In this document: positions 24,253 through 63,508 of the stretch, piece after piece
Layout: each line of letters starts with the position of its first letter
Numbering within the stretch: the stretch's first letter is position 1
Source of the DNA: a virus
IMG/VR virus record: IMGVR_UViG_3300025030_000089
Span: 1-64,000 of that record
Strand: one strand, 5' to 3'
DNA: 64,000 bases
Position numbers and translations under genes: made by a program
Notes under the pieces: model-generated
Databases searched by the model: none
Seen by the model: the letters and a program-made list of their open reading frames with translations, nothing else
Told to the model about the DNA's origin: nothing

Positions 24253-24482
24253 GGTCGTATGATACCTTTTGAACTAGCCCAGAACGCCAATCCGATGACC
24301 AAGATGCCTGCAAGTGTGAGTATCTTTTTGATCACACCTTTTCCAATCTCCTGATACAGAGAGGCAGTCATCTTCGCGATGGCTTTTTCGGCCGCACGTT
24401 CGGCAATGAACTCGACCTGATCTTCACTGAGAATTGTGTTCACGCGGCGCTCCGGTCCATGATATAGCTCGTGTTCACTCAT
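24249..24482 (-). CDS. Small membrane protein of the lysis cassette (77 aa)
   Basis: Starts MSEHELYHGPERRV, then an amphipathic helix (IAERAAEKAIAKMTASLYQEIGKG), and one transmembrane segment near residues 52-70 (ILTLAGILVIGLAFWAS). Coupled by ATGA to the spanin gene upstream and to the 74-residue gene downstream. It may be an accessory holin or anti-holin, inferred from position. Confidence 0.5.
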   Translation of the reverse strand: MSEHELYHGPERRVNTILSEDQVEFIAERAAEKAIAKMTASLYQEIGKGVIKKILTLAGILVIGLAFWASSKGIIRP

Positions 24483-24979
24483 TTCACAGTCTCTTTATGT
24501 TCGTGCCAGTCAATGAGTGCATTGAGTTGGGCAATGCAGGCGTGACATCTGGGGTAGTTGGTGCCGATATTGGCGGCGATAAGAGCGGCTGCAATGGAAG
24601 CGGACGCATCAGTAGGTGTGCCGGAGGTTTTGGGCAGACTGGAGTCGGTCGAGGCGGATTGAACCAGCAGCCCGAGATCAGCAGGACAGTTGCCAGTAAT
24701 GCCGTTGGCATACGCCAGATATTCCGTCTTTGTTTCATCGAGCCTCCGCTGTGTTTTGATCAATTCCGCACTCAGCACGTCGCCGCGTGCGACCTCTGCA
24801 AGATACGTCTGGTGCGCTTCTTCTGCCGCGTGGAGATCAGCCAGTTCATGCTCTGTCTCGCAAGCAACCATACCGCGAGAAAAAATAGCAAAATAGCCGC
24901 TCCAAGCGAGAACGGAGACAACAATAACAGCGCCAAGAACGGCCCAAGAACGCGCTGATAGAAAGGAGAAGAAAGGCAT
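24479..24979 (-). CDS. Rz-like inner-membrane spanin (166 aa)
   Basis: One N-terminal transmembrane segment (residues about 12-33) is followed by a charged, helical periplasmic domain (HELADLHAAEEAHQTYLAEVARGDVLSAELIKTQRRLDETK), the plan of an i-spanin. A complete second gene for a lipoprotein lies inside it in another frame, which is the diagnostic Rz/Rz1 arrangement. The pair would link inner and outer membranes and complete lysis of a Gram-negative host. Confidence 0.75.
   Translation of the reverse strand: MPFFSFLSARSWAVLGAVIVVSVLAWSGYFAIFSRGMVACETEHELADLHAAEEAHQTYLAEVARGDVLSAELIKTQRRLDETKTEYLAYANGITGNCPADLGLLVQSASTDSSLPKTSGTPTDASASIAAALIAANIGTNYPRCHACIAQLNALIDWHEHKETVK
24484..24738 (-). 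CDS. Rz1-like outer-membrane lipoprotein spanin, nested in Rz (84 aa)
   Basis: ATG 24738 encodes MKQRRNIWRMPTALLATVLL with a lipobox Leu-Ile-Ser-Gly-Cys ending at Cys24, followed by a proline-rich mature region (WFNPPRPTPVCPKPP), just as in Rz1 proteins. It lies entirely within the i-spanin gene in a different frame. Expected to be lipidated and anchored in the outer membrane, pairing with the i-spanin. Confidence 0.75.
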   Translation of the reverse strand: MKQRRNIWRMPTALLATVLLISGCWFNPPRPTPVCPKPPAHLLMRPLPLQPLLSPPISAPTTPDVTPALPNSMHSLTGTNIKRL

Positions 24980-24980
24980 G

Positions 24981-25097
24981 TCATTCGCCCTCCTTCCAGA
25001 AGTATAAGGCAGCCGTGATTGCGTAAACAGCGGGGATCGTCAGCGGAGCAACTGCTGGCACCAGAGCAAGCAGGATCGTTGTTTGCATCTCGTCCAT
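24981..25097 (-). CDS. Tiny membrane protein (38 aa)
   Basis: MDEMQTTILLALVPAVAPLT then IPAVYAITAALYFWKEGE: one long hydrophobic helix with charged ends. Its ATG overlaps the stop of the holin candidate (TGATG) and its stop is followed by the spanin ATG, so it is embedded in the lysis operon. It may assist membrane lesion formation. Confidence 0.5.
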   Translation of the reverse strand: MDEMQTTILLALVPAVAPLTIPAVYAITAALYFWKEGE

Positions 25098-25327
25098 CAC
25101 CGGCCTCGCGCTTCAAGTGATTCGCTGGTCTTGGCACGAAGGATGACGATCAGCAGACCAAAGCATATCATGATCTGCCCCACTGCGTCAGGTCCGAACC
25201 ACTCGGTGATGATCTTGTCCTGCGTCTGTAAATAACCGATTACGGCGAGCCAAGTGCCGGTGTGAGCGGTCCACGAGCGTGATAGGCCACGGAGGATACG
25301 TTTACTTGATGCAGAAAGGGAGATCAT
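25097..25327 (-). CDS. Holin candidate (76 aa)
   Basis: ATG 25327 overlaps the stop of the M15 peptidase gene (ATGA). Two hydrophobic segments are visible: residues about 22-36 (WLAVIGYL region) and 46-64 (VGQIMICFGLLIVIL), with a basic N-terminus and a charged C-terminus. Size, topology and position between endolysin and spanin genes fit a class II-like holin. Confidence 0.6.
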   Translation of the reverse strand: MISLSASSKRILRGLSRSWTAHTGTWLAVIGYLQTQDKIITEWFGPDAVGQIMICFGLLIVILRAKTSESLEARGR

Positions 25328-25749
25328 TCTGGAAACTCCGCAAGTTGGAAGTGCATCGGATCTGGGCGATCCCAATCACCGCCCCATTCAAAACCTGCGT
25401 CTGTGAAACATCTGACAAACGCAGGAGTCATATTACCAACTGAACCAAGTGTGTTCCATGAAGCATTAACGTCAATCGCAAGACCCCACGAATGCAGGCT
25501 TGCATTTGATCCACCGCGCATTTGACGAATGTTAAAACATCCGTCCCACGTCTTCAACTGATTGATGACTTTGCGAGTTATTAAATTGACGATAGCTTTG
25601 GCAAGAACAGGTTGGAGTTCACGATTGCAATAAATGCGTCGCGGAATAGCGCCGACTTCCATAACGTCTGGAACGTCCCAAATGATCATTGACGTTTCGT
25701 GTACCGGGGATCCGTAACGTGCCAGACATTGTTTAGAAGTTATTGTCAT
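25324..25749 (-). CDS. M15-family peptidase, endolysin (141 aa)
   Basis: The LAS/M15 motif set is clear: SLHSWGLAIDVN supplies His86 and Asp93, and DPMHFQ supplies His133 as zinc ligands, with GFEWGGDW between them (numbering from ATG 25749). The fold is that of D-Ala-D-Ala carboxypeptidase or L-alanyl-D-glutamate endopeptidase lysins. There is no signal peptide, so release through the holin is expected. It leads the lysis cassette. Confidence 0.85.
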   Translation of the reverse strand: MTITSKQCLARYGSPVHETSMIIWDVPDVMEVGAIPRRIYCNRELQPVLAKAIVNLITRKVINQLKTWDGCFNIRQMRGGSNASLHSWGLAIDVNASWNTLGSVGNMTPAFVRCFTDAGFEWGGDWDRPDPMHFQLAEFPE

Positions 25750-25910
25750 CACTCTTCTATGTCACATTTATAAACAGGACAATTATGCGCGTTTCCAAAC
25801 TCTTTACGATTATAATCGCACGCGACCATTTTACACTCGCGCACCACGTTTAAGCAAGTAGCACATTGACCTTTGATATCGTAAAACGATAACCAACCTA
25901 AGAATGTCAT
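25749..25910 (-). CDS. Cysteine-rich small protein (53 aa)
   Basis: MTFLGWLSFYDIKGQ is followed by six cysteines in CATC, C-x4-C and C-x4-C spacings and ends KCDIEE. The clustered cysteines suggest a metal site. The start overlaps the portal stop (ATGA) and the stop overlaps the peptidase start (TGATG). No function is recognised. Confidence 0.55.
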   Translation of the reverse strand: MTFLGWLSFYDIKGQCATCLNVVRECKMVACDYNRKEFGNAHNCPVYKCDIEE

Positions 25911-31008: not shown

Positions 31009-33882
31009 TTAACCGTCGTACGGATTCTTATACTGTCCGTCGATTCCGTCATCATCTTCTTCATATTGATTCTTCTCTGGTTCTGGGTCAATTGAGATCC
31101 ACTCCTGATCACGAAATACCGCAAGACTCTGGCTGAGACAATCTACCATCTCGTCATGTGCGCTATTGGGGAACGAGCAGACCTCGCGCAGAAAGTCTTC
31201 TGACCATGTCACGAACTCCCCTGGGACTTGTTTCGACTCTGGAATGTAAACGCGCCCGTTGTAGACCAAATGAGAAACAGCGTGGAGTCGCATCGTCTTG
31301 TCTGGACGTCCAGGGTTGTATTTTCGTATCGGCAATCCTGCGCGTTGCAAATCTTGAATCAAAGGAATACCAGAACCTTTGTCTTCGATCAATAGAAGAT
31401 CAACAGGTGCCTCTTGATCTCCGTAAGTGCATTTGAATTCTTCTACGGCTTTCTTACGGAGTTCTGGATATTTCAGATGCTCGGTCCAACAATCTAGAAT
31501 CATGACACAATGAGGTTCATCAGGTGAGGGGCGGAAGACACCAAAGGTCACGCATCCAGTTGGGTCATTCTCGGTCTTCTCTGTGAACGCCGTGTCGTAG
31601 CTCTGAATGACAAATTCGAAAAGAGGCATCGCCTTCTTCGCGGGCCATTGTTTGAACCAAGAGCGTTTGAGAATACCTGATTCTTCGATGTCAATCAGCT
31701 CTGCATATATCTCTTGACGACCGAGATTCGTACCTTCATATTGCGTGATCTGCCGCATGAACGGCGCTGCAAGATTTGTCTTGTTCTCGTAAGTGCTTCC
31801 GGTCGTCATTACGATCTTGTTGATCGGATGCCTTGCGAGTTTGACCAACTGCTGGATCAATGGAGTGGGTTTCGGAGTTGTCGTTACGACGCATCGTGGA
31901 TTGTTACCCAAGCGCAAAGTGAATTGTAGCATATCCCAGGTCATCTGTTGCGTGTTGATATCGTAACCAGCGATCTCGTCAACCCATGCGAAGTCAAACT
32001 GAGGACCACGTAGACGTTCAGGTTCTTCTGCTGAGAATAGGCTCGCTTGTGCCCCATTGGGCCAAGTCACCTTACGTTTCGTAGACTCGTACAACGGACG
32101 CGCCCACGGAGGGCAAACGCTGACCAGACCGGATTGACCTTCTACCGCAACGTCGCGGGCGTCACTGGCAGTTGGTGAAATGACTGCAATTCGACGCGCT
32201 TGACCTGTTTCAACCATCTCTCGTGCAAGTTCAGCTCCGACTCGCGTGTTATGAGTTGGGACCATTTGTTTACCGATTAGGTAAAGACTAGATGGAGAAT
32301 CTACAGTTAAGCATCTGACATAACGACCTTCTACCTTTTCAATAGATTTAACAATACGATGCTTATGACGTAGACCCTGTTTCCCATATTCAGGTGGGGT
32401 TATACGGTCCCTTTTTCTTGGTAGAGTGAAAGGATTGATATTCGGTCGATAAGAAACACTCCAACAATACTTCTTTTTGACACCGTACAACATTCCGTAA
32501 CCATCATTTTGTCTTGGTTTTTCACCAAGGGAAATCGCCAATTCGTAAACACCATCTGCAAGGTTTTGGATTGTTGAGCTGAATCCAACATAGTTTTTAC
32601 TATTTTCGTTACCCGCACCTCCATCGGAATCCATTAAACCTTGAAGAAGTAGCAGACGTTGTTCTTTAGATGCTCGCAAATAGATAGGAGGTATATGTTT
32701 GTTGCCCAATAGATTTTGAGATAACAATTCTTCGTGTAGTTTTTTAGATGATATAAAGCCGCACGTTGTTCTTGGATCAGCTCTGAACAACGGATATTTA
32801 AACTTTTCAAATTGACTTTTAATATGTTCGAAATCCATTTCACCCAAGTGTGAACCAGTGTGAACTCCTCCATCACGTGTGTCACCGTTTCCTAACCAAT
32901 AACCTAGCACCCAAGGATGTATAGGAAGTTCTACGTTTGGTAATTGTAAAGGACGAGTCAAAGGTATTCTTGGAACTAAATGTAAACGATTTTTCAATTC
33001 TTCCGTGTTAAAGGTTTTGGCCCCGAAGTGACCTACCACATTGCCATGACAATCGTATTTCTCACCTACGAAGGTTGCCCAGTTGTTTGGAAACGAACCA
33101 CTGTCTATGTTTTCATCATAACGACCGTACTGCTTGTTATCCAGATGTTCCCAAAAAGTCCACAGGTGTTCTTTATCAACGACAATTGATGTTTTATCTG
33201 AAAAAGTTAGTTCATACACGTCGTCTGTAAAGTATTTATCGTGCGCCTTTACGACTGTCGTTTTCTCACCAAGTTCATTAAAAACAATGTCTCCGTCGGT
33301 TATTTCACCGAGTTTTTTCCAACCATTGGGAGTCGGAACAGGTGTATTTATATCTGACGCTTTTCCAAATCCACGCCCTGCAAGAAGTACCCATGTTGCC
33401 CAAGATTTGCGAAATTCACAAACTTCTTCGTTAGGATTAGGAACTTCCTTGATCCAGACATTTGGCGTTAGATGTTGGATCGGCTTCCATCCGTCTTCGT
33501 CTGGCGGTTCGTAAGTAATTATGACATTTGTTTTTGGTTCATCTTCAACCCATTCACGTCGGTCAAGTGTCGATTGCTCAACTTTCGAATGGTGATGACA
33601 CCCTGGAAAATTTTCGATTTTTAATTTTTTGTCTGTCTGACTTTGAGCGCGGAGATAGGCGCACATACAATAAGACGTCGCTTTTGACTTCTTATGGTCG
33701 GGAGCCAACTGTTTCGGACGACCAAGGAACTCCCAATCAAACTGGAGTTTGGCAGCGTCTTCGTCTGACATCGCGCGTACCATCTCCGCCCGCTTCTTCG
33801 CTGGGAGTCTGTCGAATTTCTCCTTGGCGCTTAGATATTCGATTGATGGTTTTTCAGTCGATTTGAGAACGTCGCTCGTCAT
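31009..33882 (-). CDS. Terminase large subunit, intein-containing (957 aa precursor)
   Basis: The packaging ATPase/nuclease. The P-loop ends LLAGRGFGK at residue 174; after a 371-residue intein the next residue is Thr (TRVGAELAR), so excision rebuilds GRGFGKT. Walker B is FDFAWVDEIAG. The nuclease part has YDTAFTEKTENDPTG, LLIEDKGSGIPLI and SAHDEMVDCLSQSLAVF. The spliced host protein is about 586 residues, normal for TerL. ATG 33882 overlaps the small subunit stop (ATGA). No packaging can occur without splicing, because the intein splits the catalytic loop. Confidence 0.9.
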   Translation of the reverse strand: MTSDVLKSTEKPSIEYLSAKEKFDRLPAKKRAEMVRAMSDEDAAKLQFDWEFLGRPKQLAPDHKKSKATSYCMCAYLRAQSQTDKKLKIENFPGCHHHSKVEQSTLDRREWVEDEPKTNVIITYEPPDEDGWKPIQHLTPNVWIKEVPNPNEEVCEFRKSWATWVLLAGRGFGKASDINTPVPTPNGWKKLGEITDGDIVFNELGEKTTVVKAHDKYFTDDVYELTFSDKTSIVVDKEHLWTFWEHLDNKQYGRYDENIDSGSFPNNWATFVGEKYDCHGNVVGHFGAKTFNTEELKNRLHLVPRIPLTRPLQLPNVELPIHPWVLGYWLGNGDTRDGGVHTGSHLGEMDFEHIKSQFEKFKYPLFRADPRTTCGFISSKKLHEELLSQNLLGNKHIPPIYLRASKEQRLLLLQGLMDSDGGAGNENSKNYVGFSSTIQNLADGVYELAISLGEKPRQNDGYGMLYGVKKKYCWSVSYRPNINPFTLPRKRDRITPPEYGKQGLRHKHRIVKSIEKVEGRYVRCLTVDSPSSLYLIGKQMVPTHNTRVGAELAREMVETGQARRIAVISPTASDARDVAVEGQSGLVSVCPPWARPLYESTKRKVTWPNGAQASLFSAEEPERLRGPQFDFAWVDEIAGYDINTQQMTWDMLQFTLRLGNNPRCVVTTTPKPTPLIQQLVKLARHPINKIVMTTGSTYENKTNLAAPFMRQITQYEGTNLGRQEIYAELIDIEESGILKRSWFKQWPAKKAMPLFEFVIQSYDTAFTEKTENDPTGCVTFGVFRPSPDEPHCVMILDCWTEHLKYPELRKKAVEEFKCTYGDQEAPVDLLLIEDKGSGIPLIQDLQRAGLPIRKYNPGRPDKTMRLHAVSHLVYNGRVYIPESKQVPGEFVTWSEDFLREVCSFPNSAHDEMVDCLSQSLAVFRDQEWISIDPEPEKNQYEEDDDGIDGQYKNPYDG
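32248..33360 (-). mobile_element. Intein with LAGLIDADG endonuclease in terminase (371 aa), class 3-like
   Basis: Starts Ala-Ser-Asp-Ile (ASDINTPVPTPNGWKKLGEI) and ends VPTHN, followed by Thr. The first residue is Ala, not Cys or Ser. A Trp follows the block B His (KEHLWTFW), a Cys stands in block F (YVRCLTVDSP) and Thr precedes the final His-Asn (PTHN): the W-C-T triplet that defines class 3 inteins. Two LAGLIDADG-like motifs are seen (VLGYWLGNGD and LLLQGLMDSDG), so it probably encodes its own homing endonuclease. Confidence 0.8.
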
Positions 33883-34517
33883 TCTTTGCACTCTTCGTAG
33901 TCAATATCTTCGATCTCTGCTTCAATAGCGTTTAAGAAAGAAGCCTTGACCTCTGCAAATTGAACAGGTCCGCCATTGGCTCCGGTCAATTCCGTCACCT
34001 TAGTTTCTTTCCACCCTGCTCTAGTCTTGAGCCAGAATTTGACCATGTCCGTGTCGCCCCCGAGGGCGCTTTGGAGGGCGACTTTGGCTACTGCCTGATT
34101 GATGCGTTGAGCGCTCGTCTCAATTTCGTATTTGTAATACTTTTCAAGAAGTTTGGGTTCAATTCTTAAGGTCGCAGCAATGTCTTGGACACTGAGGCCA
34201 AGGGCAGTCATTTGCTCTACCTGCTTTGCTTGTTCAAATCCTGGGTCAAATCCAGGACTACCCTTGATATTCGCCTGATTGATCAATGCGTCGCTTATGT
34301 TCTTTGACCACTCTGGCAAGAGATACTGAGCTACAAGGGGGTCCCTGCCGAGTCCGACAGGGCCATTCTCACCACCTACGACGTTTGTCAATAGATTGCC
34401 TTCGGCGTCGTAACGCTTGGGTTCAAACGGTTTGACTACGACAGGGACGAAGTCCTCACCGAGGCTGAACGGTTTCTCGTCAGGATCTCGGACTTTCGGT
34501 TTTCTGGGTCGGGCCAT
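33879..34517 (-). CDS. Terminase small subunit (212 aa)
   Basis: Directly upstream of, and overlapping, the large subunit. The N-terminus is basic (MARPRKPKVRD). A helix-turn-helix-like segment at about 105-135 (TALGLSVQDIAATLRIEPKLLEKYY) suits DNA recognition, followed by a helical oligomerisation region and an acidic C-terminus (ENDIEDIDYEECKE-like) that may contact TerL. First gene of the virion transcript. The family varies strongly, so the call is mostly from position and HTH pattern. Confidence 0.7.
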   Translation of the reverse strand: MARPRKPKVRDPDEKPFSLGEDFVPVVVKPFEPKRYDAEGNLLTNVVGGENGPVGLGRDPLVAQYLLPEWSKNISDALINQANIKGSPGFDPGFEQAKQVEQMTALGLSVQDIAATLRIEPKLLEKYYKYEIETSAQRINQAVAKVALQSALGGDTDMVKFWLKTRAGWKETKVTELTGANGGPVQFAEVKASFLNAIEAEIEDIDYEECKE

Positions 34518-39432: not shown

Positions 39433-40080
39433 TTAAGTCTCCTTCGCAGGTGAAATTTCAATAATCTGTTTCAAAATAGGTTTCCATTTCTTCCACCAAT
39501 CCAACGCACGATTTTCCATTTGTTCAATTTTAGAATCATCAAACGAAAACCATTTTTCAATGGAATAGTTTTGACAACCGATTTGCATCCTATCGAAAGT
39601 GTATGTTATAATCCAAATGTCAGACTGAATTGTCTTCATCTCTAATCCATTGCCAATCGCACCGTTCAAGTCCGCACCGCGCAAGTCCGCACTGCTCAAG
39701 TCCGCACTGCGCAAGTCCGCACTGCGCAAGTCCGCACTGCGCAAGTCCGCACTGCTCAAGTCCGCACAGCGCAAGTTCGCACTGCGCAAGTCCGCACTGC
39801 GCAAGTCCGCACTGCGCAAGTCCGCACGGCTCAAGTTTGCATAGCTCAAGTCCGCATAGCGCAAGTCCGCACGGCTCAAGTTTGCACGGCTCAAGTTTGC
39901 ACTGCTCAAGTTTGCATCGCGCAAGTTCGCATCGCGCAAGTTCGCATAGCTCAAGTTCGCATCGCGCAAGTTCGCACTGCTCAAGTTTGCACGGCTCAAG
40001 TTTGCACGCTTTCCAAGAGGGTCATCGTTCAACCACAATAAATGATCTGCAACAATTTTATTCAACTCTTCTTTAGTCAT
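39433..40080 (-). CDS. Pentapeptide-repeat protein (215 aa)
   Basis: ATG 40080 follows GGAG. After a short N-terminal helix ([20 protein letters not shown]) come 23 consecutive A(N/D)Lxx units that would form a right-handed quadrilateral beta-helix, then a 70-residue non-repeat tail ending in a charged helix. Some such proteins mimic DNA and inhibit gyrase; whether this one does is unknown. The underlying DNA is a 15-bp tandem repeat, so copy number may vary by slippage. Confidence 0.85.
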
Positions 40081-40082
40081 TT

Positions 40083-40321
40083 TCAATACTCCACAGTAGC
40101 AAAGGCAACAATACACTGACCGACAGGGCGCAATTCAATCAGGTCACCATAGTCAATCCGTTTGCACGTCACATTCGTTAATCCTGCAAACTTCTTCAAT
40201 GTCAGAACAATCTGCCGCGTCGTGGGTTGTTTCTCGAACTCAACGCTACCACGCTTGACCCAGAATAATTCGTCTCGCCACCGAATGTATCGGTAACTTC
40301 GAAGTTGACTTTGATTGTCAT
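40083..40321 (-). pseudogene. Small gene with one-base frameshift
   Basis: ATG 40321 gives MTIKVNFEVTDTFGGE and then runs into a stop at 40202. The alternative frame from about 40270 encodes ELFWVKRGSVEFEKQ, LTLKKFAGLTNVTCKRIDYGD and ends VAFATVEY at 40083. One missing base near 40274 would restore a 79-residue protein in frame with both neighbours' coupling (stop just before the pentapeptide gene, start overlapping the zinc-ribbon stop). Confidence 0.65.
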
Positions 40322-42283: not shown

Positions 42284-43084
42284 CTACTTCACCTGAACTA
42301 ACGGAGTCGCATTACCTAGCATGACCGTATGCGTACCTTCTTTTGCGAAACGTGCTTGCATTTCAATTTCACGCAAACGTATCAGCGTCGGTGTCAAACT
42401 TCTTGCAATGATTTCATTTGCATCAGCCTGCCCTTTGGCCTCAACTCGCAATCGGTCTGCTTCCGCCTTAGCCAGTTCGAGTTCTTGTTGTTTACGACTC
42501 ACTTCGAATTGCGTTTGAGCAGCAGATCGAATTGCGGCCTCAATCTGAGGATCAGTCACAATGTTGCGAATGTTCACATTGGTGATAACGAACCAGTTCT
42601 TACCTGTCGTTTTGTCAAGTTCTGCTTGAAGATTTGAACGAATCTTTTCAGCAATTTCCGGCCGCTTGGGGTTCATATCTGCACCGTTGAACCCCGAAGC
42701 GACTTGGTAGGTTGCTTCACGAGCATTACGATAGACAAACCCGTTACCGACAATCATTGTTCCGTCTTGCATTGCAGACATATCCCCTGCGTAACGCACC
42801 ATGATGTCGGCAGCCTTTGTAGGATCGATCTTATAGTAAATGTCGACGTCGAAGTCTGCCATCGTAAGGTTGTCTGCAGACTTCGGACGCAAGTCATTCA
42901 ACGGCAGTGCAATCTCTTTTACAGAGACTTCGTTTACAGTTTTGAACATCGTGAAATACATACCAGGAAGATTTTCTTCTTCCTTCACTTGCCCAAGGGA
43001 CGCCTCCACACCGACGTTACCTGTGTCGATTTGAGTACAGCCGAACATTGCAAACAAAAGAGGAGCGACGATAAACTTTTTCAT
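42284..43084 (-). CDS. SPFH/Band-7 (prohibitin-like) lipoprotein (266 aa)
   Basis: The N-terminus MKKFIVAPLLFAMFGC is a lipoprotein signal with Cys16. The body follows the SPFH plan: GNVGVEASLGQVKEEENLPGMYF, VSVKEIALPLNDLRPKSADNLTMADFDVDIYYKIDPTKAADIMVRYAG, and a long C-terminal coiled coil (QELELAKAEADRLRVEAKGQADANEIIARSLTPTLI). Bacterial HflK/HflC and stomatins have this fold and form membrane rings regulating proteases. A phage copy bearing a lipid anchor is unusual and may act in the envelope to protect or inhibit. Confidence 0.75.
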   Translation of the reverse strand: MKKFIVAPLLFAMFGCTQIDTGNVGVEASLGQVKEEENLPGMYFTMFKTVNEVSVKEIALPLNDLRPKSADNLTMADFDVDIYYKIDPTKAADIMVRYAGDMSAMQDGTMIVGNGFVYRNAREATYQVASGFNGADMNPKRPEIAEKIRSNLQAELDKTTGKNWFVITNVNIRNIVTDPQIEAAIRSAAQTQFEVSRKQQELELAKAEADRLRVEAKGQADANEIIARSLTPTLIRLREIEMQARFAKEGTHTVMLGNATPLVQVK

Positions 43085-43273
43085 TTAGAACACCTTAAAG
43101 GTTGAAGTTGATAGAACAACAAGAAGTGAGAACAACGTCACTACGACTAACAAGAAAGGTAGGAAGATCTTTCTACCGTATTGAAACACTTTGTTTCGTT
43201 GTTCCTTTGTAAGGAAGATCATCGTTACAACGATTGCCGTTATGATTAACGAAAGAACTATGACTAATTTCAT
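43085..43273 (-). CDS. Two-helix membrane protein (62 aa)
   Basis: Transmembrane segments at about residues 3-22 and 37-56, separated by a basic loop (TKEQRNKVFQYGRK). It is directly upstream of the SPFH lipoprotein in the same operon; the two may act together in the membrane. Confidence 0.6.
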   Translation of the reverse strand: MKLVIVLSLIITAIVVTMIFLTKEQRNKVFQYGRKIFLPFLLVVVTLFSLLVVLSTSTFKVF

Positions 43274-43509
43274 GACGTAATCGTCTCCAGTAAATGACGC
43301 TTCACAATGTCAATTGCCAAATTCGCTTCAGCATTTGACGCCCCGGCTTTGAAGATATTGGTTTGCCAGAAACCAGCGCGATCATCGATGGTAATGATGA
43401 TTACTTTATCGCAGCCTTTAAGAACTGGCAACGTGCGCTCCAACAACTGCTCAGGTGTTTCAGATTGAACTTCGTTGGTAGCAGGAAAAAGGTTTACAAG
43501 ATTAGTCAA
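43270..43509 (-). CDS. Small soluble protein (79 aa), unknown
   Basis: MTNLVNLFPATNEVQSETPEQLLERTLPVLKGCDKVIIITIDDRAGFWQTNIFKAGASNAEANLAIDIVKRHLL. An alpha/beta domain, ATGA-coupled to the membrane gene. Similar small proteins occur in phages with DUF932 genes, but I assign no function. Confidence 0.55.
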   Translation of the reverse strand: MTNLVNLFPATNEVQSETPEQLLERTLPVLKGCDKVIIITIDDRAGFWQTNIFKAGASNAEANLAIDIVKRHLLETITS

Positions 43510-43565: not shown

Positions 43566-44732
43566 TTAAGTTGTTGCGACGTAATCAAGTGCCAGTTCAA
43601 ATGCCTTGGTCTTCAGTGTGTTTCCAGCACCATACCAGGAATTATTCAAGCGACTGTCTGTAGTGCGGTGCGAGGTGTGGTAGTCCATTGTTTCTGTTAT
43701 CGCGTTGACCAAACCGAACCAAGTTCCATTACTGCTCGTATAATCGCTACCCATCCCTTCGCCTGCGAACAATGACCAGACGTTGGCGCACTTCTGTGTC
43801 ACCGCAGGAGATTGCGAAGCAATGGTTTCTTCCCACCAATCGGCTCGGGCTTTCAAAAACGCTTCAGTTTCCTCATGCCTTGCACCTGTGGGAACCGGCC
43901 GCTCGACAACATCAAGATCACCGAAGAGCGTCACCAAGTATTCAACAGCTTTGTAACGTGGCGCAGTTTTACCTGCCAAGGTTTTCAACTGTTGCGAGAA
44001 CTTATTCCAACCTTCATCAATGAATCCGAGTTGCTCCTTGACTTCCGAAGGTTTCCATACGCGATTATGAGGGACACGAATGCGCGTGTTGTTATCCTTT
44101 GTTGCAATGGACAAAGTATTGTTACAGACAACTCTTACAGACGTAAACTGCGCCGTCGTTGCCAACGTACCATCACACGACGTGGTCAAAAGAAGATAAC
44201 CTTTGACTGTGTCAGGTATCATCTTTCCGTCGACCTTCGTGCCCGCCAGTTCAGCCATCCTTCCTGTGTCGGCAAGCGCCCAGAAACGTCGCCCGCCAAA
44301 CAGAACACCCGCAGTCTCAAGCTGCATGTCTGCTGTACCAACGAGGTCACGGTAGAACTCAAGCACTTCCTGGGGCTGCACGATGTTGTAAGAAGGACTG
44401 ACCACCGACAGCGGGCTGTTCGTATCGCTACGGTACAGAACATGTTTGTCAGGGTAGATGATTGTCTGTGTGAGCGCAGATACCCCGAAGTCTTCCTGCA
44501 TCTGTTTCTGCACTTCAGAAGTGTATACTTTACCATCAACTTCCAAAAGTTGATCACGAACAACATCAAACTTCACAGGAGCACGGAAGATCTCCCACTC
44601 CATTCGTGCAGCTTTCGCCCATTCCTCAATGGATGCACCTTTTTCAAGGTTAAATCCCAAACCGTGCCAAGGGGTATTACCGACATATGCCATCGCAGCT
44701 TCGCCGGTTGAAAAGTCTAATTCATGTACCAT
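43566..44732 (-). CDS. DUF932 phage/plasmid-like protein (388 aa)
   Basis: TPWHGLGFNLEKGASIEEWAKAARMEW, then RSDTNSPLSVVSPSYNIVQPQEVLEFYRDL and FGGRRFWALADTG..., GYLLLTTSCDGTLATTAQFTSVRVVCNNTLSIA are the signature blocks of DUF932 (PF06067). The family is common on phages and plasmids; a role in DNA maintenance has been suggested but not proven. ATG 44732 follows GAGGAGTTGAAC. Confidence 0.85.
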   Translation of the reverse strand: MVHELDFSTGEAAMAYVGNTPWHGLGFNLEKGASIEEWAKAARMEWEIFRAPVKFDVVRDQLLEVDGKVYTSEVQKQMQEDFGVSALTQTIIYPDKHVLYRSDTNSPLSVVSPSYNIVQPQEVLEFYRDLVGTADMQLETAGVLFGGRRFWALADTGRMAELAGTKVDGKMIPDTVKGYLLLTTSCDGTLATTAQFTSVRVVCNNTLSIATKDNNTRIRVPHNRVWKPSEVKEQLGFIDEGWNKFSQQLKTLAGKTAPRYKAVEYLVTLFGDLDVVERPVPTGARHEETEAFLKARADWWEETIASQSPAVTQKCANVWSLFAGEGMGSDYTSSNGTWFGLVNAITETMDYHTSHRTTDSRLNNSWYGAGNTLKTKAFELALDYVATT

Positions 44733-44734
44733 GT

Positions 44735-44899
44735 TCAACTCCTCAAATAACGAATATATTTCAGATTTTCAATAGCTTCAACACAGTCGTCGTAGGTTTT
44801 GAAACAATCGACATAGTTGTAAAAGAACAAAAGGTGTCGTTCATAGAGACGATACCAAGTTCCACTTGCGTCTCTTGTGATTTTGAATCTAGCAACCAT
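44735..44899 (-). CDS. Small protein (54 aa), unknown
   Basis: MVARFKITRDASGTWYRLYERHLLFFYNYVD, ending YIRYLRS. Basic and aromatic. Preceded by AAAAGGAGAATGAA; stop lies 2 nt before the DUF932 start. Not recognised. Confidence 0.55.
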   Translation of the reverse strand: MVARFKITRDASGTWYRLYERHLLFFYNYVDCFKTYDDCVEAIENLKYIRYLRS

Positions 44900-60992: not shown

Positions 60993-61163
60993 CTATACCC
61001 TCTTTCCGTTAATAACAGTTCCACCACGTTTCAAACAATTCATTATATCGAACGTTTTGACGTACTTTTCAGCATCTGGAATTTTAACTATACGCTCTCC
61101 GATCTTTACAATTTCTCTAGGTATTTCTTTTACTGAAGGAAAGTTTATCTTCTGCTTTCTCAT
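60993..61163 (-). CDS. Small protein (56 aa), unknown
   Basis: MRKQKINFPSVKEIPREIVKIGERIVKIPDAEKYVKTFDIMNCLKRGGTVINGKRV. Basic, alpha/beta. ATGA-coupled to the helicase. It may be a helicase accessory protein, but only position supports this. Confidence 0.55.
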   Translation of the reverse strand: MRKQKINFPSVKEIPREIVKIGERIVKIPDAEKYVKTFDIMNCLKRGGTVINGKRV

Positions 61164-63508
61164 TGACTCTCTCCATAGTAGTCGTAGAAAAGTTTTGAAG
61201 AAGGAAGAACGATGGTCAGTTTTTCCTTTGCCCTTGTGACACCAACATAAGCAACGCGACGTTCGTTGTCTGGTTGCTTCACATACTCCTGATGAGACCT
61301 ATAAGCCATGTCGCTTAACAAGACAACATGGTCTGCTTCACCACCTTTCGCCGCATGTATCGTGCTAATAGAGCATTTTGGCGTGGCCGTTAGGCCATAC
61401 CCGTTTGCTCCGAGGCGCTGGTAATACGTAATAAGGTCGTCCCCAATACCGTTAAGCAAAGTGTACCAGGGCGCAACGTCCAATAGGCCAAAATTGTTTC
61501 GCAATTCTGCAAAACTAAATAGATCAGTATCTTTTAGATTGGCAACCTTGACCTTAAAGCCACGAGCTAGGTATTCACCAATTCGCATATTGTCGTACAT
61601 CGCCTTGACTTCTGCACCTGTTGCCGGCTCAGCCTTACGCAACTTCTCAACACCTTCAATTGCTTTGATATGTGCCGAACGCACTGAAGAGAATCCATAT
61701 TTGTTTGTATAAGGAATTCCCATCCGGTGCATGTAGTCTTGTATCTTCCTTGCGAGGTAAGTGTTGCGAACAAGGAACAACGTACTTTCCTCACCGACAG
61801 CGACATCTTCAAGTGAAGTCATGAAGTTGACCTCACCATCTGAATCACGCGGGTCAAACGGCTTATCAAAACGGTTCTCAATCTTCTGAACAATTCCGTT
61901 GGCAATCTCATGAACAGAACGCGGTAAACGGTACGACTTACTTAGAACCGTTTTATCACCTTCTAGTGCGAGAAACGCGTTGACATCGGCCCCACTCCAT
62001 TTATAGATAGAATTATGAGTTATGATCCCATCAGCAATATATGTGTGATACTTTTCAACATCAAGGCTATAGACAGGAGTATTCACAACCGACTCTTTAA
62101 CAACCTTTATCGGAAACCATGTTTTGACTCTAGAACTGTTTTCATAGATAGGAACACACATTATGTCTGATATAAGATTACACGCCTTTATCTCCATTAT
62201 CTGAGCACCAGATTTTGAATAAGGGTTGTAAAGTTTATCTACCAAAGGGTGACGTATGTCTAGATCAAAGTCTTTTAACAACGCCAGTGCGTTTGCTTTC
62301 GTGTCTATCAAATTGAATACTGAATCAGAAACTTCTTTTGAATATGTTCCTTCAAAGCAAATCTGTGGGAGACCATACTTTGCAGAATAAACCTGTTCAT
62401 ATATTCTAGCTTCATCAGCTGAATTACATACTCGAAGTATCCAAGCGGAATGAGCGCGTTCCACGTTGGTTCTTATATTGAGTTTGAGACCGTTACCGTG
62501 CCAGAGTTCACATCTTCCGATACGATAGTTGTCATTTTTACCCATAAGATACACAACATGCTTCTTTTCTTCCGAACGTTCCGTATTCCACTTTATCAAA
62601 CACTTGTGGTTCGCGGTATATTTCGATTTCAATTCACCTGCTTCAACTACTGTTAGTTTCCCAGTGTAGTTTCTAACAGATTTTTCAAAAAGGTATCCTC
62701 CGTTCCTAAGGCCGTACACCATAGAATCACATTGAGCATAAGTCAGTAACTCGTCAGAACTAGGATCCAGGAGTTCTATTGGCTTAACCCCTTTTGTCGT
62801 GTTTATCATTGTTCCAGCAGGTTGGCACTGATCGTCGTCACCTGCAATTATCGTTTGCCGAACATTGCCGTAAGCATGTTTCAAAACAGACCACTGGAGT
62901 GACGACAAATCCTGCGCTTCATCAACAATTACTTGCCGCGCCGGAGAAGGGTCGCACATGGCAATATAAGCCGACAACATGTCAGTGAAGTCCATTACGT
63001 ACTTACTGGACTTGAAGTCTTGATAACCTTCTTGGAAGCGCTCTAGTTCTTCCCACTTACACTCGTGATAATTCTCTTCCCACACTTCCTTTAGTGGGCG
63101 TTGTTGCACGCGAGCAAGGTTGTCAAGAAACAGGAGAGTGTCGCCTTTTTCACTACCGACAGGCACACCTTCAGACTCATCCCACGTACCTTCAAACCGA
63201 TAACCCAACCATTCTCCAAGTTCCCTATAGTGTTCCTTACCAACAACATCACTCTTACCTATACCGAGTCCAGCGAAACACATCGCATGAACCGTTTTGA
63301 ACATCGGTAACTGACGCGGCTTGAGATTGAACTTTTCACCCGCTCTTCCCGTTGCCTCTGCAATCGCCTTCTTTGTAAAGCTGACAAACGCTATTCGGTC
63401 AGGTGATTCGCCCGCTTGCAATAACGCGTCAATCTCGCTTAACACCTTCGTCGTTTTGCCGCATCCTGGAGGACCCAGTATTAACGACTGATTATCAGAA
63501 ATCCTCAT
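61160..63508 (-). CDS. SF1 (Uv-rD/Dda-like) DNA helicase, intein-containing (782 aa precursor)
   Basis: Motif I LILGPPGCGKTT (residues 10-20), Ia FVSFTKKA, II VIVDEAQD (194-200), III IAGDDDQ|SIYKWSGA interrupted by an intein after Gln227, IV SKSYRLPRSV, V ISTIHAAKGGEADHVVLLSDM, VI RRVAYVGVTRAKEK. The spliced protein is about 510 residues, the size of Dda/PcrA-type phage helicases. The intein separates the Q-tip of motif III from the rest, so only spliced enzyme can couple ATP hydrolysis to unwinding. Start follows GAGGATTTCTG-like ribosome site. Confidence 0.85.
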   Translation of the reverse strand: MRISDNQSLILGPPGCGKTTKVLSEIDALLQAGESPDRIAFVSFTKKAIAEATGRAGEKFNLKPRQLPMFKTVHAMCFAGLGIGKSDVVGKEHYRELGEWLGYRFEGTWDESEGVPVGSEKGDTLLFLDNLARVQQRPLKEVWEENYHECKWEELERFQEGYQDFKSSKYVMDFTDMLSAYIAMCDPSPARQVIVDEAQDLSSLQWSVLKHAYGNVRQTIIAGDDDQCQPAGTMINTTKGVKPIELLDPSSDELLTYAQCDSMVYGLRNGGYLFEKSVRNYTGKLTVVEAGELKSKYTANHKCLIKWNTERSEEKKHVVYLMGKNDNYRIGRCELWHGNGLKLNIRTNVERAHSAWILRVCNSADEARIYEQVYSAKYGLPQICFEGTYSKEVSDSVFNLIDTKANALALLKDFDLDIRHPLVDKLYNPYSKSGAQIMEIKACNLISDIMCVPIYENSSRVKTWFPIKVVKESVVNTPVYSLDVEKYHTYIADGIITHNSIYKWSGADVNAFLALEGDKTVLSKSYRLPRSVHEIANGIVQKIENRFDKPFDPRDSDGEVNFMTSLEDVAVGEESTLFLVRNTYLARKIQDYMHRMGIPYTNKYGFSSVRSAHIKAIEGVEKLRKAEPATGAEVKAMYDNMRIGEYLARGFKVKVANLKDTDLFSFAELRNNFGLLDVAPWYTLLNGIGDDLITYYQRLGANGYGLTATPKCSISTIHAAKGGEADHVVLLSDMAYRSHQEYVKQPDNERRVAYVGVTRAKEKLTIVLPSSKLFYDYYGESQ
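62012..62827 (-). mobile_element. Intein in helicase motif III with GIY-YIG-like insert (272 aa)
   Basis: Starts Cys-Gln-Pro-Ala-Gly-Thr (CQPAGTMINTTKGVKPIEL) and ends GIITHN before Ser (SIYKW), a standard class 1 (Cys1, Ser+1) intein with YSLDVEKYHTYIADG block F. No LAGLIDADG motif is found; instead VVYLMGKNDNYRIGR, then R and E residues (NIRTNVERAHSAWILRV) and SADEARIYEQVYSAKYG follow the order of a reduced GIY-YIG nuclease (YIG-like, Arg, Glu). Confidence 0.7.

Follow-up and report, generated by a model that had tools for sequence, protein, structure and literature searches.

An SPFH (Band-7) protein with a lipoprotein signal, encoded by a virus next to a gene for a small membrane protein, raises the question of whether the two genes form a unit and what such a unit might do during infection. 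Both lie in the window, which is the whole stretch of DNA analysed here (64,000 nucleotides, positions 1 to 64,000 of IMG/VR record IMGVR_UViG_3300025030_000089). The features of the locus, in window positions, are as follows.

42284..43084, minus strand: SPFH/Band-7 lipoprotein (by prediction), ORF of 266 aa (Band_7 E 4.9e-16; phrog_200 E 1.3e-45; model pLDDT 88.0, pTM 0.72)
43037..43048, minus strand: lipobox-like M13-F14-G15-C16, read from the sequence; Cys16 is the predicted lipid attachment site, with Thr at +2 (all 58 aligned relatives share the Cys; 62 clusters of 71 have a lipobox)
42458..43033, minus strand: Band_7/SPFH domain, residues 18-209 (Pfam match; SPFH1/SPFH2 strands and helices in the model)
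42338..42550, minus strand: C-terminal coiled coil, residues 179-249, in the predicted model (CC1 179-229, CC2 232-249)
43085..43273, minus strand: 62-aa two-helix membrane protein, putative partner, with a basic loop and short tails (two hydrophobic segments; TAA abuts the SPFH ATG; position conserved in relatives)
43270..43509, minus strand: 79-aa ORF, its stop sharing the bases ATGA with the start codon of the 62-aa gene; probably on the same transcript, and not conserved in the module

Gene order and neighborhood

Since both genes are on the minus strand, the 62-aa gene comes first in transcription, upstream of the SPFH gene. Its TAA is followed directly by the SPFH ATG, with no gap and with an AAGG motif upstream of that ATG. 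The start codon of the 62-aa gene in turn runs into the stop of the 79-aa ORF (ATGA); co-transcription is therefore likely. The original prediction had placed the 62-residue gene after the SPFH gene, on a shared transcript. Its presence, its two helices and, judging by the abutting and overlapping starts and stops, its probable co-transcription stand, whereas the order is the reverse. Promoter and terminator scans returned site numbers about equal to those in shuffles. The 79-aa ORF had no tblastn match in the fetched loci, and neither did any of 12 ORFs that flank the SPFH gene in the window, among them the 62-aa ORF. The pair's neighborhood in the window consists of DUF932 and nucleotide and DNA metabolism genes; the DUF932 protein adjoining the module (43566-44738, E 1.1e-51) is likewise without a relative in the fetched loci.

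An SPFH lipoprotein of a known phage family

The 266-aa protein matched Pfam Band_7 with 59.7 bits, against a curated cut-off of 23.6, and PHROG 200, annotated "lipoprotein", over residues 4-265. No clear similarity to an unrelated family emerged, and both assignments identify the protein as SPFH. Its N-terminus, MKKFIVAPLLFAMFGC, ends lipobox-like at Cys16 (MFGC16), a residue unchanged across the 58 aligned relatives; Met at position -3 of a lipobox is less usual. The protein thus carries the lipobox-cysteine N-terminal signal by which bacterial lipoproteins are recognized, and lipid attachment is predicted. In the 62 clusters with a lipobox, the cysteine is followed by Thr in 44, Gly in 10, Asp in 5 and other residues in 3; at least one plausible lipobox, with Pro at -2 (L078), escaped the rule. 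Together with the modelled C-terminal coiled coil (see below), these results bear out the description of the protein in the original prediction. A single-sequence scan found no close relatives of the window SPFH protein, 24 kb of the window gave no megablast match to phages, and NCBIfam returned nothing above cut-off for seven proteins.

The SPFH protein had also been called rare in phages, which proved wrong. A tblastn search at E ≤ 1e-5 matched 476 of 50,697 phage records, all at less than 60% identity and, in 462 cases, with query coverage of 80% or more; the hosts of the matching phages were mostly Staphylococcus (275) and Salmonella (134), and at E ≤ 0.01 the number of records rose to 541. 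SPFH genes of T4-like phages were already listed in 2006 (PMC1524935). One SPFH match was found in the 70,179-base IMG/VR record, which may be a fragment. Members of PHROG 200, such as Kayvirus MbpS and Kuttervirus Vi01_108c, share the SPFH domain and a similar length with the window protein, but only about 26-30% identity. The Vi01 member resembles the window in having a lipobox and an upstream two-helix gene, while the Kayvirus member differs in its one-helix upstream partner and in lacking a classic lipobox. The SPFH lipoprotein of a Vi01-like phage has been detected by mass spectrometry, with a count of 3 (PMC10892097), and an SPFH protein of a Pasteurella prophage, a possible member of the same family, was reported from outer membrane vesicles (PMC9872710). 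By itself, therefore, the SPFH lipoprotein is ordinary for phages and of a known kind (PHROG 200); the finding is the recurrent pair.

Fold and nearest solved relatives

An AlphaFold2 monomer model built with 58 sequences, which superseded an earlier, shallower one (pLDDT 71.4), contains SPFH1, SPFH2 and helices at residues 179-229 and 232-249, so the predicted fold is SPFH1-SPFH2-coiled coil. Its best structural matches were prohibitin (9o9z_A; Z 17.8, rmsd 11.7 over 230), Erlin (9o9u_A; Z 16.1, rmsd 7.5 over 226), HflK/C (7vhq_E; Z 15.9, rmsd 7.5 over 230; another HflK/C chain, Z 14.6) and QmcA of the QmcA-YbbJ complex (8z5g_A; Z 13.1, rmsd 8.2 over 232). In a sequence profile search, prohibitins came first among the solved relatives (E 9.4e-8) and stomatins were reached too, with no HflK or HflC chain among the 10 sequences reached at E ≤ 0.01. 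By sequence profile, the window protein appears closer to prohibitins than to HflK/C. The prohibitins PHB1/PHB2 are thus its closest relatives by both profile and fold, although identity in the structural alignment is about 14%; prohibitins are mitochondrial heterodimers and helix-anchored. A published regression relates subunit number to CC1 length (0.1782x + 10.22; PMC12624060). If this length rule holds, the 51-residue CC1 would, by extrapolation from the model, correspond to a ring or cage of about 19 subunits.

A two-helix protein recurs upstream of phage SPFH genes

The SPFH gene of annotated phages repeatedly turned out to follow a small gene, for example MbpV in Kayvirus or Vi01_109c, and a wider collection of loci was therefore made. 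It comprised 180 viral-contig loci, 15 annotated phage loci and the window, 196 in all, of which 195 have an SPFH ORF; the remaining locus (L046) was left out. The viral-contig loci represent 80 of 477, 20 of 20 and 80 of 499 relatives among the matches listed, and the annotated loci were hand-picked from the 541 tblastn records, so that the set is not a random sample. A partner was defined as an ORF of 40-130 aa with its stop at most 30 bases from an SPFH start, and helices were called by a hydropathy rule (19 residues, mean ≥ 1.6) rather than by a trained predictor.

An upstream ORF with at least two helices was present in 23 of 30 clusters at 60% identity (one helix in 2, none in 5), in 57 of 71 at 90% identity (one helix in 5, none in 9), and in 8 of 13 at 40% identity (one helix in 1, none in 4). 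The same rule found two helices before only one of 91 other genes of at least 150 aa (one helix in 8) and in none of the 30 positions downstream of the SPFH gene (one helix in 5). The contrast of 23/30 upstream with 0/30 downstream and 1/91 controls supports the earlier suggestion that the pairing with a two-helix membrane gene is meaningful. Among the 15 chosen annotated phages, at least two helices were found within 30 bases in seven and within 100 in one more; three, two of Staphylococcus and one of Listeria, had one helix, and four, including both Aeromonas phages, had no partner. The two Aeromonas phages, phiWae14 and AsFcp_1, have instead a helix-less protein of 113-114 aa directly before the SPFH gene (L013 2629-2970; L016 upstream of 2446), and the two proteins look alike by eye.

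Searches of openly licensed PubMed Central papers turned up no description of the pairing as a general module. The Kayvirus authors placed MbpV and MbpS side by side and suggested help with secretion (PMC7150955). The small ORF is present and unannotated in Bue1 and, by eye, in a 107-kb Acinetobacter plasmid. RefSeq/GenBank records with an unannotated partner ORF beside an annotated SPFH gene include L221 (5001-5198), L214 (upstream of 3959) and L005 (2768-2962). That the partner gene is sometimes missed by annotation may explain why the pairing across phages went unremarked in those papers. The pairing of SPFH and two-helix proteins appears to be new; the evidence for it is strong as regards the pattern and weak as regards function.

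The window's 62-aa protein has hydrophobic segments at residues 3-21 and 36-54, with five Lys/Arg in the loop compared with two in the tails. It fits what appears to be the general partner architecture: about 58-64 aa, two helices, a basic loop and a stop abutting the SPFH start. In 60 two-helix partners, Lys/Arg were more numerous in the loop than in the tails in 50, fewer in nine and equal in one, which suggests that most partners should have a cytoplasmic loop. Ten partners that were scanned fell into several PHROGs (11680, 3667, 22697, 1130, 12697) or none. In Pfam, 20 partners had only scattered weak hits, with no NfeD among the matches listed (25 of 50 families). Partners of the phage clade and of the chromosomal loci described below are clearly homologous across groups (55.8 and 32.6 bits). 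As a profile homologue of the other partners, the window's 62-aa protein was rejected, its score being reached by 13, 66 and 5 of 500 block-shuffled copies. It is tied to them by position, length and architecture, and the sequence similarity is not significant.

Distribution in chromosomes, prophages and phage-plasmids

A search of bacterial genomes located 17 loci that encode an SPFH protein of the window type (46-50% identity); they belong to betaproteobacterial genera and to Lysobacter. A small helix ORF lies directly upstream at 14 of these loci, with two helices in 12 and one, at threshold, in two. In Undibacterium, Inhella, Roseateles and their relatives, the SPFH lipoprotein and the small upstream helix protein (59-63 aa in 13 cases) resemble those of the window, but the setting is chromosomal (EamA, AsmA, thiolase) and patchy; ten neighboring proteins from four loci were ordinary chromosomal genes or unknown. 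Of 100 genomes sampled from the order, three, with the centre genome among them, have the window-type gene, and the partner was not seen at the two further loci that were new in this sample. Phage and chromosomal sequences are intermixed in the tree, with full support for the grouping of L036 and L211 and for that of L034 and L208. The window sequence groups with L017/L018 at 92/86 only, and long branches meet. The tree therefore does not settle the direction of transfer between chromosome and phage.

A related prophage-type pair (L150) also occurs in E. coli: its DNA matches in 451 of 5,426 genomes, with query coverage of 80% or more in 193, and the matches comprise 301 chromosomal and 200 plasmid positions. 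The pair of P1-like records sits between tRNA-Thr and another tRNA, beside a dnaB homologue, at the site occupied in reference P1 by plp, upl and tciABC. This swap site, running from tRNA-Thr to the next tRNA before ban/dnaB (L222 13349-15009 versus L221 3883-6112 and L223 1858-4112), holds either plp-upl-tciABC, as in reference P1, or the helix protein and SPFH lipoprotein, as in the others. The idea that plp-upl of reference P1 might be the same pair was rejected; plp (378 nt) and upl are other genes on the opposite strand, and the non-essentiality data reported for P1 in PMC10695390 thus do not apply to the pair. In the P2-like P88, the pair is found among early accessory genes.

The pair recurs in loci where the window's neighbors have no matches, as would be expected of accessory cargo. 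With similar pairs in many unrelated phages and some chromosomes, it looks like a small mobile membrane module.

A possible role at the envelope, and its alternatives

We give an even chance to the reading that the two genes form a compact accessory membrane module, in which a lipid-anchored SPFH ring and a minimal membrane partner organize or guard the envelope during infection. From the computed family, fold, lipobox and recurrent pairing, we infer lipidation, a ring, contact between the two proteins and an effect on the envelope, in the following steps. The 266-aa protein would be exported, acquire a lipid at Cys16 and stay on the periplasmic face of a membrane; there its SPFH1-SPFH2-coiled-coil body could form a ring or cage. 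The 62-aa hairpin would be an inner-membrane protein, its basic loop facing the cytoplasm, and would serve as the ring's dedicated small partner, in the role that NfeD has for SPFH proteins or FtsH for HflK/C. During infection, the module might then organize or guard a patch of envelope, by stabilizing membrane protein complexes or by steering the turnover of membrane proteins.

An SPFH ring with a small membrane partner resembles the SPFH-NfeD and HflKC-FtsH arrangements, as described in PMC13086221 and PMC12624060. SPFH-NfeD pairs such as QmcA-YbbJ share with the phage pair a similar SPFH fold and a gene for a membrane partner, but the phage partners are mostly 54-69 aa and have no NfeD domain, and the phage SPFH protein is, by prediction, lipid-anchored, unlike that of QmcA-YbbJ. 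NfeD (PF01957) had no match in the phage record at E ≤ 1, whereas 13 of 14 control genomes were positive. The mass-spectrometric detection in a Vi01-like phage counts in favor of the module. Several observations count against it: the window's 62-aa protein does not clearly outscore its block-shuffled copies, the partner is missing at four of 15 annotated phage loci and three of 17 chromosomal ones and was not seen at two further chromosomal loci, the Staphylococcus and Listeria phages have a one-helix upstream protein and no classic lipobox, and the opposite charge pattern in nine of 60 partners suggests that partners may have several origins. In E. coli, Thr at +2 directs a lipoprotein to the outer membrane. 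By that rule, Thr at +2 would place the SPFH protein in the outer membrane, apart from its inner-membrane partner, which also tells against the module.

A broader claim, more tentative and with somewhat less than an even chance, is that an as yet unnamed two-gene system, travelling as one piece, has reached lytic phages, prophages, phage-plasmids and some bacterial chromosomes, and is a dedicated viral machine for organizing the envelope of the infected cell, its partners having been recruited repeatedly.

Of the alternatives, it seems unlikely, if worth serious attention, that the pair is an envelope moron, acting in superinfection exclusion or blunting a membrane-damaging effector of abortive infection. 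Such a role would suit the interchangeable-cargo behavior at the P1-like tRNA/dnaB site and in the early accessory region of the P2-like P88; genes called superinfection exclusion lie near the pair in Vi01 and Bue1, and one partner family, phrog_1130, is classed as moron/host takeover. The annotation of nearby genes is, however, weak evidence, PADLOC gave no match for the five window proteins scanned, and the exclusion lipoproteins Cor and Llp are small and not known to have an SPFH domain.

It is also rather improbable that the phage SPFH protein is a decoy of or substitute for HflK/HflC, which would bind the periplasmic part of FtsH and shift proteolysis, for instance by stabilizing a phage regulator or membrane protein. 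A disturbance of HflKC-FtsH by a phage mimic had been raised in the original prediction. HflK/HflC with FtsH shares the SPFH1-SPFH2-coiled-coil order and the predicted periplasmic location with the phage protein; in the structural comparison, chains of HflK and HflK/C come up as close matches (Z 15.9 and 14.6). All five Asp clusters are of the Klebsiella P18-100-like prophage kind, a subgroup whose partners have the reverse charge pattern, and under the Lol rule Asp after the lipid-bearing Cys keeps a lipoprotein in the inner membrane, beside FtsH. An effect on lysogeny was proposed by the CSP3 authors (PMC10269572), and a link to HflK/C was named for AH14b (PMC4936722). Against this, the sequence profile reaches prohibitins and stomatins and no HflK/HflC at E ≤ 0.01, and the phage record has a single SPFH match, whereas HflK and HflC act as a pair; the phage module has one SPFH gene rather than two, with a partner that is not a protease. 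The SPFH family is, moreover, also present in phages of Staphylococcus, a genus not known to have HflK/HflC.

A part in lysis control, in which the two-helix protein would be a holin or antiholin and the lipoprotein would work like a spanin, is very unlikely. The pair does come after holA-lysK in Kayvirus A5W, where MbpV is said to resemble holins (PMC7150955), and in Vi01 it follows genes annotated as endolysin and, further up, spanin. The window, however, has a lysis cassette at 24479-25752, with an M15-type endolysin (25324-25752, E 3e-15) and, by eye, Rz/Rz1-like overlapping ORFs (24479-24979 and 24484-24738); this lies 17 kb from the pair, which argues against a lysis role in the window. 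The window pair is instead near DUF932 and nucleotide/DNA metabolism genes, and the P1-like, P2-like and Klebsiella P18-100 pairs are among tRNA, early or repressor-side genes. Finally, that a helix protein stands beside the SPFH gene by chance, as an unrelated neighbor, might be argued from the weak sequence link between the window's 62-aa protein and the other partners and from the density and small size of phage genes, but it is highly improbable and, for the family, largely refuted by the 23/30 upstream, 0/30 downstream and 1/91 control counts.

Envelope organization or membrane-protein quality control during infection is the favored role, with FtsH interference and phage exclusion as live rivals. 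Guesses at the role of phage SPFH proteins in papers on single phages have been lysogeny control, secretion and lysis. The recurrent partner gives biochemical work a definite starting point, since the usual key to an SPFH protein is the protein that it surrounds or tethers (FtsH, NfeD). As P1-like and P2-like coliphages carry the pair, laboratory strains of E. coli can be used to address the question.

Some other window genes were observed in passing. A 960-aa ORF at 31009-33891 resembles, by eye, an intein-interrupted terminase large subunit, and a UvrD-like helicase ORF at 61160-63508 (E 1.5e-21) has a weak internal intein-splicing match (E 7.4e-5, below cut-off). At 39433-40116 there is a long pentapeptide-repeat protein (Pfam E 8e-45), a fold that occurs in DNA-mimic proteins.
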